From Thermoflexus hugenholtzii JAD2 (GTDB lineage: Bacteria > Pseudomonadota > Gammaproteobacteria > Burkholderiales > Burkholderiaceae), in contig CALPOM020000004.1 of the NCBI GenBank assembly GCA_943325205.2, positions 1 through 58,087 of the forward strand: DNA of 58,087 bases, in the 5' to 3' direction. Both the position numbers and the translations under genes were made by a program. Shown here one piece after another: positions 28,030-33,415 of the stretch. The notes under the pieces were generated by a model. The model was not told the DNA's origin and made no database searches. It saw nothing but the letters and a program-made list of their open reading frames with translations. Position 1 is the stretch's first letter; the number at the start of each line of letters is the position of its first letter.

Positions 28030-28479
28030 TTAAGGTCTAGGTAAACCTTCTACGAGACTACCTGGACCGAGTTTTCTTTTTGAGAACCATCCTCGGTTCA
28101 TTTCTAATGCGTAGGGATTTGCTCTTAATGGGCAATGGCTCGACTCGCTAAAAGCTTCCATTTCAGCGATATTAATAATTTTTCCACTAGCATCTATAAA
28201 TGCGATAGCCAGAGGTATTTCCGTATTTTTCATCCAAAAGCAATGGCTTAGCTTGTCATTAAACACGAATAACATACCCTGATTTTCGGGCAGTTCTTTG
28301 CGGTACATTAAGCCCATTTGTTGGCTAGCGGGCGTACTGGCAACTTCAGCTTTAATTATTTCTTGATGTATTTTTAAGGTGATTGATGGAAGAGGCGCGC
28401 CATAGCACGTTGCTGCAATCATTGATAACGAAATCAGCTGCGCAAGTAAGTGGCTACATTTGATGAAGCTATTTAGCAT
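28030..28479 (-). CDS. DUF192 family exported protein
   Basis: This 149-residue protein begins with a hydrophobic signal peptide (about 7-27) ending in a CYGAPLP-like cleavage region, so it is probably periplasmic. The mature part is a single DUF192 domain. Visible family blocks are EVASTPASQQMGLMYRKELP near 45-64, GMLFVFNDKLSHCFWMKNTE near 68-87, and IPLAIAFID followed by KIINIAEME. Its function is unknown. DUF192 genes lie near isocitrate dehydrogenase, cspA and clpSA in related Burkholderiales, from memory, which matches this neighbourhood. It is convergent with ppnP and divergent from the unknown gene at 28719. Confidence 0.88.
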   Translation of the reverse strand: MLNSFIKCSHLLAQLISLSMIAATCYGAPLPSITLKIHQEIIKAEVASTPASQQMGLMYRKELPENQGMLFVFNDKLSHCFWMKNTEIPLAIAFIDASGKIINIAEMEAFSESSHCPLRANPYALEMNRGWFSKRKLGPGSLVEGLPRP

Positions 28480-28558
28480 AGTGGCTTGGGTTATTCATTG
28501 CGTTGCAAAGATTGTTGGTCATCAGTTATTTGAAGGGTTTAGTTTCAGTAAGCGATAT

Positions 28559-28571
28559 TGACCGAAGGTCA
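28559..28571. promoter_or_regulatory. Small palindrome, possible operator
   Basis: TGACC-GAA-GGTCA is a perfect 5-3-5 palindrome in the 239-base gap between the divergent DUF192 gene and the unknown gene at 28719. A TATAGT at 28611-28616 downstream could be a -10 for the latter, but no good -35 pairs with it. The regulator, if any, is unknown. Confidence 0.3.
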
Positions 28572-28718
28572 TATCACCAAAAGTCAACCCGCATCAGTTG
28601 AATGATTTATTATAGTAACAACTTTGCAGAACTGATAGCTTTATGCTCATTCAAAGCGAAGTAATCAGGACGTGCGATAGTAGCTTTTTTAATCACTTTT
28701 ATTAAAGGTCTTTAAGTT

Positions 28719-30092
28719 ATGTCAACTCCACTGGATTTGTTACAAATTGCCAAAGAAGAACAAAACGGCGATTTATTTAAATTACTAGATAGTATTTACA
28801 AGCGATCTGCTCTGAAGCCCGTAGGCTTTAATGATGCAATTATTTGGGAAGGCGGGAATTTTGTTGGTGATGTGAAGCCAGTAGCCCATGCTTTTACCGA
28901 TATGTTTGCCCTGAACGGGACATTGATGGCCTTGGATGTTTTAGGACTGCCTTTCTTGGGAGTGCCGATGATGGCCCAATTTCGGCATGACACGAACCTT
29001 GCCTCGCTCGAGTGGTTTGGAAAATTAGACTATATAGCTCTGAAGTGGTCTACTGCTGGCGATTTCCTAGTCAACGATGGTGGCAAGAAAGTAGTTGTAG
29101 CGGGTAAGTCTGCTAATGCACCTTTGCGAACTGCCGCAGGCGTGTATTGTAATGTTCGTCCTTATGGCGGAATTACGAGTATTCGTTTTATGCCAGGTTT
29201 ACCTTATTCTCAAGATAAGAAAAAGTTTAAAATAGATCCAGAGACTGGCAATATTCATTCAGAAATGAATACACCGGGTATTCGCATGGCATACGCTGCG
29301 CGATTATTCCTTAAAATGGTGCATGACACCGGGATGATTGGTCGAGTAGCCACAAAACCTACTCAGGCCCAAGAAGATGCAATTAACGCCGGTATTATTC
29401 GTTGGCTAATGGCGGGAACTAAGTTTAAGTTAAAACGCCAGTATGCTGTGGATGCCTATGAAGAGCATCGTGCTAATGTGGACGCAATTGTAGCTTTATT
29501 ACCCAAAGACTTCAAAGCTGGTATGGAGAATTGGGGCGGAGACATTTATGAACATATTGCAGATACTAATTTTGGTCTTTTATTGCATGACATGATTCGC
29601 CAAAGGCCTTGTATTGTTTATGCTACGGATTTAGATGGTGATCGTTTAACTGATTTGATGGCTGATGCAGCTGATGTTCTGCGTGATTGGGGTCAGATTG
29701 TTTTAGACCGAGTAGGATCTCAAGTCGACATGAAGCAGCTTTGGAAAGATATGGGATTTACTATGACAAATGGTAAGGATATGACCAGTATCATGTATCG
29801 TGTCCATGGCGCACCGATCTACGAGCAAACTTTGGGCTCTGCTGATGCGATGTTAATGCGCTTATTAGACGGCGATGAAACCGTTGGTGGTGAGAAGCAG
29901 CCCTATGATCCAAGAATTCATTTTGTGCTTATCAATGAGGCTTATAAGGCAGCCAATCCTGGCAATGAGAGGTTGGCAAATTGGTTGGATGAGCAACTCA
30001 AGGCCTTCGATCGAATTTATAGCCCGAATCGTCCGTTATACATTGAAGGATATCAAGCATTAAAAGCAGCTATTAAACCTTGGGGGGTATGA
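28719..30092 (+). CDS. Unrecognised conserved-looking cytoplasmic protein (457 aa)
   Basis: I do not recognise this protein. It is 457 residues (about 50 kDa), without signal peptide or membrane segment, and of balanced enzyme-like composition with codon use like its neighbours. Distinct blocks are WEGGNFVGDVKP (43-54), ALKWSTAGDFLVNDGGKK (107-124), AGVYCNVRPYGGITSIRFMP (140-159), GNIHSEMNTPGIRMAYAARL (177-196), VYATDLDGDRLTDLMADAAD (300-319) and RPLYIEGYQALKAAIKPWGV at the C-terminus. The acidic DLDGDRLTD could bind a metal; that is a guess. It sits between DUF192 and cspA-clpS-clpA, where I recall icd in relatives, but it shows none of the standard isocitrate dehydrogenase motifs. A divergent decarboxylating dehydrogenase, including the roughly 50-kDa class reported from phytoplankton, is one hypothesis. 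Confidence 0.9.
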   Translation: MSTPLDLLQIAKEEQNGDLFKLLDSIYKRSALKPVGFNDAIIWEGGNFVGDVKPVAHAFTDMFALNGTLMALDVLGLPFLGVPMMAQFRHDTNLASLEWFGKLDYIALKWSTAGDFLVNDGGKKVVVAGKSANAPLRTAAGVYCNVRPYGGITSIRFMPGLPYSQDKKKFKIDPETGNIHSEMNTPGIRMAYAARLFLKMVHDTGMIGRVATKPTQAQEDAINAGIIRWLMAGTKFKLKRQYAVDAYEEHRANVDAIVALLPKDFKAGMENWGGDIYEHIADTNFGLLLHDMIRQRPCIVYATDLDGDRLTDLMADAADVLRDWGQIVLDRVGSQVDMKQLWKDMGFTMTNGKDMTSIMYRVHGAPIYEQTLGSADAMLMRLLDGDETVGGEKQPYDPRIHFVLINEAYKAANPGNERLANWLDEQLKAFDRIYSPNRPLYIEGYQALKAAIKPWGV

Positions 30093-30220: not shown

Positions 30221-30243
30221 AAACCCCTCTCGAGGGGCTTCTT
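30218..30243 (-). terminator. Rho-independent terminator of cspA
   Basis: On the minus strand, CCCCT-CGAG-AGGGG (30237 down to 30224) is followed at once by a run of T residues (30223 and below). It lies about 35 bases beyond the cspA stop. The A-rich other side offers only weak termination on the plus strand for the upstream gene. Confidence 0.75.
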
Positions 30244-30273: not shown

Positions 30274-30477
30274 TCAACCGCCTTGGATATTAGTCGCTTG
30301 TTTGCCTTTTGGGCCTTGAGTAATATCAAAAGTTACCTTTTGACCTTCTTTGAGGGTTTTAAAGCCACTCATTGTGATTGCACTGAAGTGAGCAAATAAC
30401 TCTTCTTCTCCATCATCAGGTTTGATAAACCCAAAACCTTTTGCATCATTAAACCATTTTACGACACCGGTTGCCAT
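30274..30477 (-). CDS. cspA: Cold-shock family protein (CspA-like)
   Basis: This is a 67-residue single cold-shock domain that binds single-stranded RNA and DNA and melts RNA structure. RNP1 is KGFGFIKPD (about 13-21) and RNP2 is ELFAHFSAI (about 26-34). The rest, with [20 protein letters not shown] and ATNIQGG at the end, is typical. Members of this family may be cold-induced or constitutive; the paralogue identity cannot be set from sequence alone. It has a long leader that starts with a palindrome at 30552 and a terminator at 30218. It is divergent from clpS, a very common proteobacterial arrangement. Confidence 0.95.
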
Positions 30478-30755: not shown

Positions 30756-31115
30756 ATGAGCCAGAAATTGAGTAAAAAACCGCTTTTAGCAATTCGTCCG
30801 ACCAAGCCCTTAAAAGATGATGGCCGGGCAACAGTTTTAGATCGGGAAGTTCAAAAAGTTGAACCTCCCCCTTTGTACCGGGTTATTTTGTTGAACGACG
30901 ATTTCACCCCCATGGAATTTGTAGTCATGATTATTCAGGAGTATTTTCATAAAGATCAGGAAACAGCTACTAGAATTATGTTACAAGTACATATGGAAGG
31001 AAAAGGTGTTTGTGGGGTTTATACCCATGACATGGCTGTAACTAAGGTAGCGCAAGTAACTGAAATCTCCCGTAAATCGGGTCACCCTTTGCAGTGCATG
31101 ATGGAGGAAGTATGA
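30756..31115 (+). CDS. clpS: ATP-dependent Clp protease adaptor ClpS
   Basis: ClpS recognises N-degrons (bulky N-terminal residues) and hands substrates to ClpA-ClpP. The 119-residue protein has an unstructured N-terminal tail (about 1-38) needed for delivery. The core domain follows: [20 protein letters not shown] near 41-60, including the NDD pocket residues, [20 protein letters not shown] near 64-83, and [14 protein letters not shown] near 84-97. Its stop overlaps the clpA start as ATGA. ClpS-ClpA adjacency is nearly universal in proteobacteria. The gene may be leaderless. Confidence 0.97.
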
Positions 31116-33415
31116 TTGCTCAAGAATTAGAAGTTAGTCTGCATATGGCTTTTGTAGATGCAAGGGCTGCTCGGCATGAGTTTATTACCGTTGAGCATCT
31201 ATTGTGTGCTTTGTTAGATAATGCCACTGCAGTAGATGTATTAAAGGCTTGTGCGGTAAATATTGTTGATCTTCGCATCCAACTCAAGAATTTCATTAAC
31301 GACAATACGCCCGTTGTGCCGGGCACAGAAGAAGTTGATACGCAACCAACCTTAGGATTCCAAAGGGTAATCCAGCGAGCCATTATGCATGTCCAGTCCA
31401 CATCTAGTGGAAAAAAAGAAGTTACTGGAGCCAATGTATTGGTTGCTATTTTTGGAGAAAAAGATTCGCATGCGGTTTATTACCTGCAGCAACAGGGAGT
31501 AACTCGCCTGGATGTGGTGAATTTTATTAGTCATGGAATTCGTAAGGATCAGGCTGAGTCGGTCAAGCAAGACCAGCAAAATAGTGACTCGGATGAGACT
31601 GCCGCTGGTACTGGAAAAGATAGCCCGTTAGAACAGTTCACACAAAACTTAAATCAATTAGCAAAACAAGGCAAGATTGATCCGCTCATTGGCCGTGAAC
31701 ACGAGGTTGAGCGGGTTATCCAAATATTGTGCCGTCGCCGCAAAAATAACCCGCTGTTGGTTGGTGAGGCGGGTGTTGGTAAGACTGCAATTGCGGAGGG
31801 CTTAGCATGGCGAGTGACCCAAAATGAAGTCCCGGAAATTTTAAAAGATGCGGTTGTTTATTCTCTGGACATGGGGGCTTTGCTTGCTGGTACTAAATAT
31901 CGCGGCGATTTTGAGCAGCGCTTGAAGGCTGTTTTGAAGTCTTTAAAAGATAATGTCAATGCGGTTTTATTTATTGATGAAATTCACACCCTGATTGGGG
32001 CTGGCGCAGCTTCTGGCGGAACTTTGGATGCCAGTAATTTATTAAAACCTGCTTTATCTAGCGGTCAGTTGAAGTGTATCGGAGCAACTACCTTTACGGA
32101 GTATCGTGGCATTTTTGAAAAAGACGCTGCGCTATCTAGACGCTTCCAAAAAATTGATGTTTTAGAACCAAGTATTGATCAAACCGTGCAAATCTTGCGG
32201 GGTCTAAAGTCCCGATTTGAAGAGCATCATGGCGTGAAGTATTCTCAAAATGCCTTAAGCGCTGCTGCTGAGTTGTCATCAAGATATATTAATGATCGGC
32301 AGTTACCAGATAAAGCAATTGATGTGATTGATGAGGCTGGTGCTGCGCAACGAATTTTGCCAAAATCGAAACAGAAAAAAACGATTGGCCGGGTAGAGAT
32401 TGAGGAGATTGTTTCTAAAATTGCCCGGATTCCGCCGCAATCGGTTAGTCAAGATGACAGGAGTAAATTGCAGACCCTGGATCGGGACTTAAAGAGCGTC
32501 GTGTTTGGGCAAGACCCAGCGATTGAAGCTCTAGCATCGTCCATTAAGATGGCTAGGGCGGGACTTGGCAAAATCGATAGGCCAATAGGGTCCTTTTTAT
32601 TCTCAGGCCCTACAGGCGTTGGTAAAACAGAAGTTGCCAAGCAACTAGCTTTTATTATGGGTGTGGAGTTGTTGCGTTTTGACATGTCGGAGTATATGGA
32701 AAGGCATGCAGTTAGTCGCTTAATTGGTGCGCCCCCTGGATACGTTGGTTTTGATCAAGGTGGTTTGCTCACTGAGGGAGTAAACAAAAAACCGCACTGT
32801 GTTTTATTACTCGATGAAATCGAAAAAGCGCACCCTGATATTTTTAATATATTGCTCCAAGTCATGGATCATGGGACATTAACGGATAACAACGGTCGTA
32901 AAGCTGATTTTCGTAATGTAATTATTATCATGACGACCAATGCTGGCGCTGAAACGATGAATAAATCGACCATTGGATTTACAAATCCTCGAGAAGCTGG
33001 GGATGAGATGGCTGATATTAAGCGTATGTTTACCCCAGAATTTAGAAATCGCCTTGATGCAATTGTGTCCTTTAAAGGTCTTGATGAGTCAATTATTCTG
33101 CGAGTTGTCGATAAATTCCTCATGCAACTAGAAGAGCAGTTGCACGAGAAAAAAGTGGATGCGACTTTCTCCCCGGCACTTCGAACTTTCTTATCTAAAA
33201 AAGGTTTTGACCCATTAATGGGCGCCAGACCTATGCAACGTTTAATTCAAGATACCGTTCGTAAAGCCCTAGCCGATGAGTTACTTTTTGGACGCCTACT
33301 CAATGGTGGCACAGTCTTAGTTGATGTGGCGGATAAGGGTGAGGTAGTACTCACCATCCAGGCTGCTGTTACAAAGGGCAAGGCTGCGTCTACAGAGACA
33401 TCTGAAGAGACTTAA
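31112..33415 (+). CDS. clpA: ATP-dependent Clp protease ATP-binding subunit ClpA
   Basis: ClpA is the hexameric AAA+ unfoldase that feeds ClpP. Start at 31112 ([14 protein letters not shown]) is supported by GGAGGAAGT just upstream, by homology, and by the ATGA overlap with clpS; it gives 767 residues. The N-terminal repeat domain occupies about 1-145. D1 Walker A is GEAGVGKTA near 215-223 with Walker [11 protein letters not shown] near 283-292. D2 Walker A is GPTGVGKTE near 500-508. The IGL-type loop for ClpP docking lies near the middle of D2. It converges on dut with 3 bases between the stops. Confidence 0.97.

Follow-up and report, generated by a model that had tools for sequence, protein, structure and literature searches.

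Isocitrate dehydrogenase (IDH) is a central enzyme of respiration and among the best-studied of all enzymes. In the window (the whole stretch of DNA that was analysed, 58,087 nucleotides), the place where the IDH gene icd would be expected is occupied by a gene for a 457-residue protein, here called Q457, raising the question of what this protein is and whether it serves as the IDH of the cell. The gene and its surroundings are as follows:

28719..30092, + strand: Q457 open reading frame (ORF), proposed divergent isocitrate dehydrogenase; intact from ATG to TGA, 457 amino acids, 50.9 kDa, pI 6.0
28030..28479, - strand: DUF192 gene (Pfam PF02643), upstream border of the slot
30274..30477, - strand: cold-shock protein gene, csp (Pfam PF00313), downstream border of the slot
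30756..31115, + strand: clpS (Pfam PF02617)
31094..33415, + strand: clpA, for a ClpA-like AAA protein with Clp/AAA domains (Pfam)
30224..30237, + strand: terminator-like hairpin in the gap between Q457 and csp, a weak feature that fits a single-gene unit

The position of the gene between DUF192 and csp-clpS-clpA, claimed in an earlier note made from the DNA letters, was confirmed by the Pfam assignments of these neighbours; upstream of Q457, Pfam further identified argF (two carbamoyltransferase domains), argG (argininosuccinate synthase) and a Ppnp gene. Likewise, the claim that the gene encodes a protein of 457 residues and about 50 kDa held, given the intact frame, the calculated mass, the third-position differences and the conserved residues. 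Mismatches between Q457 and seven homologs were concentrated at third codon positions (differences at codon positions 1/2/3 of 55/26/240 for L012 and 98/64/319 for L009), and 223 of the 457 residues are invariant in the family (alignment of 103 rows). Together, this third-position pile-up and this invariance indicate that, as judged from the sequences compared, Q457 is under strong purifying selection.

Regarding expression signals, the region has 2 terminator-like hairpins, no more than shuffles give on average (2.0). A TAGTGCGATAATC-like stretch, which may be an extended -10 promoter, is common to the window (around 28670-28685) and to L017, L018, L020, L024 and L027, about 35-65 bases 5' of the Q457 start codon, and was unreported by a simple promoter scan. 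An icd-II RNA has been described 5' of icd in Polynucleobacter (PMC8632094). Neither in the window nor in 12 loci did any Rfam family reach its gathering score, and 28480-28780 gave nothing at E <= 5; icd-II may be missing from Rfam.

The slot itself links Q457 to IDH. The earlier note had expected icd in this neighbourhood of related bacteria, and this expectation proved right. Two congeners (G001 and G036; loci L147 and L148) have the order clpA (-), clpS (-), csp (+), type I icd (-), DUF192 (+), ppnP (-), argG (-), which, when reversed, is the order and orientation of the window with a type I icd in the place of Q457. Their icd protein is an NADP-dependent isocitrate dehydrogenase (785-786 bits, NCBIfam). 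A third locus, L109, has a type I icd between DUF192 and csp. With 4 kb flanks, csp was found in one flank of 7/12 type I loci and 2/6 type II loci (L128 and L131). With 1.5 kb flanks, L107, L108, L113 and L114 showed no csp, in contrast to L109. Seven loci with a monomeric IDH, which cover five genes and include some fetched with 1.5 kb flanks, showed csp once, about 0.9 kb away in L145. For Q457 itself, csp, clpS or clpA lay in the fetched flanks of 45/97 loci, a count in which flank lengths vary and some genes perhaps occur twice, and from whose original 46 rows the type I locus L109 was removed. Q457 loci outside the clp slot had no common neighbour theme (10 proteins, 6 loci). Thus, Q457 and members of each known IDH type occur at or near one slot. 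The monomeric IDH gene of L145 (G314) and the type II genes of L128 (G283) and L131 (G159) are close to csp-clpS, the position that type I icd holds in relatives, which suggests repeated in-place replacement.

Despite this location, no sequence search assigned Q457 to a family. There was no family at E <= 1 in NCBIfam or PHROGs, a single chance row below the cut-off in Pfam (E 0.28) and a single chance row among the PDB sequences (E 0.39), so that the statement of the earlier note that the protein belongs to no nameable family stands: nothing beyond chance was found in these four collections. In the PDB sequence search with family profile A1, no IDH was matched, and neither Q457 nor any of 33 family members matched the isocitrate/isopropylmalate dehydrogenase family PF00180 (Pfam, E <= 1). 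Having no NCBIfam match at E <= 1, Q457 also fails the models of type I (TIGR00183, 567.3 bits), type II (TIGR00127, 397.15) and type III (TIGR00178, 950; about 740 amino acids). A literature search, with subscription journals mostly outside its scope, returned known IDH papers and no account of a fourth IDH type or of Q457.

In the genome that carries Q457, a canonical icd, sought as evidence against a replacement, was not found. The genome (93.8% complete, 206 contigs) contains sucA and four Iso_dh proteins, namely LeuB, two tartrate dehydrogenases (TTC) and one protein, L003, that stays below every cut-off; none of the four passed an IDH cut-off. The L003 gene (L003:1498-2556, contig C8) gave a best IDH-model score of 259 bits against a cut-off of 509, and was the single type II match in the genome (1.6e-5). 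It is flanked by two ORFs that by eye resemble receptors of tripartite tricarboxylate transporters. In genome G003, which is 99% complete and whose Q457 is 99% identical, there was no monomeric IDH, and the best matches were 1.9e-33 for type I (below cut-off) and 1.1e-5 for type II.

Across genomes, Q457 and the known IDH types largely exclude one another. Among 37 congeners, 33 have a monomeric IDH (two partial), two a type I icd and two Q457; the searches for Q457 and monomeric IDH covered 37/37, that for type I 7 and that for type II 2. In a sample of 300 order genomes, 0/21 Q457 carriers versus 212/279 others have a type I icd over the cut-off, and 0/21 carriers have a monomeric IDH. The 88 order genomes without type I over the cut-off include 32 with monomeric IDH (29 over cut-off), and 20 of the 45 of them that were scanned have a type II IDH over the cut-off. 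Two carriers also have a known type: G038 a type II IDH of 583 bits (type II was sought in 7/21 carriers) and G174 a below-cut-off type I match (3.4e-165). Overall, no known IDH was found in 19/21 carriers (type II sought in 7) versus 14/279 non-carriers (Fisher p 2.9e-19), a table whose genomes are non-independent because the carriers fall into 6 genera, and in which G114 (8.5e-160), G156 (2.8e-167) and G174 were scored as type I positive despite lying below the cut-off. One of the three known types is present in the remaining 265/279 non-carriers, in G114 and G156 on the strength of these sub-cut-off matches. In five of the 14 IDH-negative non-carriers (G130, G170, G193, G204 and G299), type I was matched at E values between 5e-45 and 3e-96, perhaps by gene fragments. 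SucA consumes 2-oxoglutarate, and it was present in 22/22 Q457 genomes examined (21 over cut-off).

Also among these 14, the nearly complete genomes G183 (98%) and G280 (99%) of family f20 yielded neither type I nor type II over the cut-off, no monomeric IDH and no Q457. SucA is present in G280 and missing from G183, and these genomes possibly have another replacement or a broken cycle.

Relatives of Q457 were found in at least 147 genome stretches in a genome scan, and the 80 kept are all 80-99% identical to it and nearly full length. Their record titles name mostly uncultured Betaproteobacteria and Burkholderiales, and also Zwartia, Sheuella and Jezberella strains. Many metagenome-assembled contigs with relatives are titled Bordetella parapertussis, a label that looks like a wrong automatic assignment. 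In the 300 order genomes, Q457 occurs in 21, at 76-100% identity, the rest giving nothing at E <= 0.001, and these carriers represent 6 of the 134 genera sampled. It was present in all 11 genomes of the family of G048, with one copy truncated, and, among 398 genomes of the phylum, in its own genome only. No relatives were found in viral contigs, phages or plasmids, where the three rows from plasmids (E 6-10) are chance matches. Q457 is thus either highly conserved or absent, an all-or-none pattern that would suit a housekeeping enzyme for which alternatives exist.

The sequence of Q457 was then compared with IDHs at the residues that bind isocitrate and metal in enzymes such as E. coli Icd and human IDH1. 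The candidate sites are:

29109..29159, + strand: proposed isocitrate-binding block, codons 131-147, S-A-N-A-P-L-R-T-A-A-G-V-Y-C-N-V-R (S131, N133, R137, R147)
29355..29357, + strand: proposed catalytic Lys K213 (ATKPT; compare STKNT in type II and VHKGN in type I), placed by eye; invariant in 103/103
29562..29564, + strand: proposed third metal-binding Asp, D282 (YEHIADTN), 26 residues before D308; invariant in 103/103
29628..29654, + strand: proposed metal-binding block DLDGDRLTD, codons 304-312 (D308, D312), aligned by hhalign with NLNGDYISD of a pooled profile
29799..29846, + strand: strongly conserved block RVHGAPIYEQTLGSAD, codons 361-376, with invariant columns; tentative counterpart of the coenzyme loop

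The earlier note had found none of the icd motifs in this protein, a claim that did not survive: divergent IDH motifs are present in the form of SxNxxLR(x9)RP and of DLDGDRLTD, the counterpart of NLNGDYISD. The 2/4/10 spacing of S131-x-N133-x-x-L-R137-(9)-R147-P is that of the type I signature SLNVALRQELDLYVCLR, and the stretch AGVYCNVRPYGG of Q457 contains the end of the SxNxxLR...RP signature. N133, R137 and R147 are invariant in 103/103 sequences, as are D304, D308 and D312, and position 131 is S in 101 and T in 2. The distance from this Ser to the Asp of the GD pair is 177 in Q457, compared with 179-180 for type II enzymes and 193-194 for type I enzymes, and the counterparts of D282 precede the GD Asp by 24 residues in type I and 22-23 in type II, EHIAD being comparable to EHRLID of type II. 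hhalign left K213 unaligned to the IDH Lys. The block R361-D376 as a coenzyme site is a guess from sequence conservation. With motif patterns written after sight of the sequences, 766 ORFs of at least 280 amino acids were scanned, and every ORF with the pair of blocks was a Q457 (111, counting duplicates), a type I (17) or a type II (8). All four Iso_dh paralogs of the genome, L003 included, are without the SxNxxLR block, so the pair points to isocitrate, and not to isopropylmalate or tartrate, as the probable substrate of Q457.

To compare whole families, a pooled profile of 12 type I rows (L107 being the same gene as L115), 5 type II rows (L113 the same gene as L127) and 4 paralogs, leaving out the monomeric IDHs and six fetched IDHs (L120-L122 and L130-L132), was aligned with the Q457 family by hhalign. 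Both blocks were aligned in register over 170 columns (Neff 1.4), with scores of 39.1 for alignment A1 and 40.7 for A2 (without the truncated L144), P values of 2.5e-4 and 1.4e-4 and probabilities of 43 and 52%. The best of 200 column shuffles scored 25.6 (0/200 reached the pooled score), the reversed profile 20.4 and the best family that is neither Q457 nor IDH 24.1 (28 decoy families). Its greater diversity relative to the decoys somewhat favours the pooled profile, a bias for which the column shuffles control, as they were built from the same pooled profile. When families were scored, one with type I members (30.2) came first after Q457, and type II (18.4) and monomeric IDHs (15.9) were in the decoy range. 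Profiles of single types stayed at decoy level or aligned out of register, with scores of 25.0 for type I (out of register), 17.6 for type II, 17.0 for monomeric IDHs and 22.1 for the paralogs.

Two template-free AlphaFold2 models were built from family members only, using 33 sequences (model 1, pLDDT 62.5) and 103 sequences (model 2, pLDDT 68.2, pTM 0.56). In Foldseek searches of 350,542 PDB chains, the superfamily of isocitrate/isopropylmalate dehydrogenases took ranks 1-13 and 30 of the best 50 rows for model 1 (best E 5.1e-3), and superfamily members and IDHs took ranks 1-27 and 49 of the best 50 rows for model 2 (best E 1.1e-4, probability 0.99), the sole other row being RNase J2 at rank 28. 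Among the top matches of model 2 is the type II IDH of Ostreococcus tauri (about 400 residues), together with many other type II IDHs. The IDH matches have TM-scores <= 0.32 and rmsd values of 14-20 A, so the fold match is local, and stretches with pLDDT under 50 take in the isocitrate block (131-147) together with the greater part of the metal block (305-314). Thus, the fold comparison with isocitrate/isopropylmalate dehydrogenases proposed in the earlier note does retrieve IDHs at modest model confidence, and the predicted models support membership of the superfamily, not its details.

Three IDH types have been described, of which types I and II have subunits of 40-45 kDa and share less than 15% identity, and type III has about 740 residues (PMC8287583). 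Diatom IDHs include one type II enzyme of about 55 kDa (PMC7460673) and one type III enzyme of 80 kDa (PMC8287583). Q457 may or may not be related to the phytoplankton class of roughly 50 kDa raised in the earlier note: in sequence, no PDB IDH was matched by Q457 or by its family profile, and in fold the O. tauri enzyme came up together with many other type II IDHs. Q457 resembles each type in part. With type II (TIGR00127; human IDH1, O. tauri 7e2w/6ixl) it shares nearly the same spacing from Ser to metal block, KPT in the place of KNT, E-H before the candidate third Asp and the top Foldseek rows of model 2; however, there is no sequence-level match, Q457 is about 50 residues longer, its DLDGDRLTD stands against NYDGDVQSD, and its inter-Asp gap is 26 against 22-23. 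With type I (TIGR00183; E. coli Icd) it shares the slot, SxNxxLR with an R ten residues on and the GDxx[TS]D block, whereas it has no significant match to the type I profile alone and its inter-block stretch is 16-17 residues shorter. The monomeric type III (TIGR00178) is present in 33/35 congeners without Q457 and is among the best Foldseek matches, but has about 740 amino acids against 457 and no sequence match. LeuB and TTC have a related metal block, NLFGDILSD (L001 and L002) or NLHADVLSD (L004), but are without SxNxxLR, and the genome of Q457 already has LeuB and two TTC over the cut-off.

Based on the locus replacement, the exclusion pattern, the conserved motifs with their spacing, and the resemblance in profile and fold, we consider it highly likely that Q457 is the IDH of the cell, a very divergent subfamily of isocitrate/isopropylmalate dehydrogenases that replaced the known types at the icd locus. 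Two options raised in the earlier note, a replacement of icd and a divergent decarboxylating dehydrogenase, are jointly supported: the search for a canonical icd came up empty, and IDHs are what the predicted fold retrieves. Q457 is probably a fourth IDH type, without significant overall sequence similarity to types I-III.

Three other readings were weighed. Q457 might belong to the superfamily and act on another 2-hydroxyacid of the isopropylmalate, tartrate or homoisocitrate kind, with another protein such as L003 making 2-oxoglutarate; L003 indeed passes no NCBIfam cut-off, reaches up to 259 bits with an IDH model and lies between the transporter-receptor-like ORFs, but it and the three other paralogs are without the SxNxxLR block of Q457, and this reading, which would leave unexplained both the swap at the icd locus and the mutual exclusion of Q457 and two other IDH types, is improbable. 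We regard it as slightly more improbable still that Q457 is an unrelated enzyme, its slot and exclusion being by-products of shared ancestry and 2-oxoglutarate arising by an unknown route. Such a reading would account for the absence of a significant sequence match to any IDH and draws on the restriction of the carriers to 6/134 genera, by which the counts are non-independent; however, the exclusion persists within one genus, and the motifs, the pooled-profile controls and the fold search point to IDHs. That a known icd is hidden in an assembly gap, with Q457 as an extra gene, is suggested by the incompleteness of the genome (93.8%, 206 contigs), but the 99% complete G003 is also without type I over the cut-off, type II (1.1e-5 only) and monomeric IDH, and 16/21 carriers have a completeness of 90% or more with contamination of 5% or less, so that this explanation is very improbable indeed.

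If Q457 is an IDH, its activity, metal, coenzyme and dimeric state can be proposed from the matched residues. S131, N133, R137 and R147 would hold isocitrate, and D308 and D312, with D282 probably contributed by the partner subunit, would hold Mg2+ or Mn2+. K213 would be the acid/base Lys. Hydride would pass to NAD+ or NADP+, and the intermediate would lose CO2 to give 2-oxoglutarate, which would supply SucA and glutamate. More tentatively, and less likely than not, Q457 might represent a fourth phylogenetic type beyond the published types I-III, with a rebuilt coenzyme-binding third (around 338-457, with no canonical loop recognised) and so a coenzyme choice or regulation unlike that of any known IDH, and it might move between lineages and take the icd locus.

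If Q457 is the IDH of these bacteria, what looks like a gap in the citric acid cycle of many Burkholderiales would be closed by an unnamed protein whose gene is present in at least 147 genome stretches, and one chromosomal slot would have been refilled with different IDH types.
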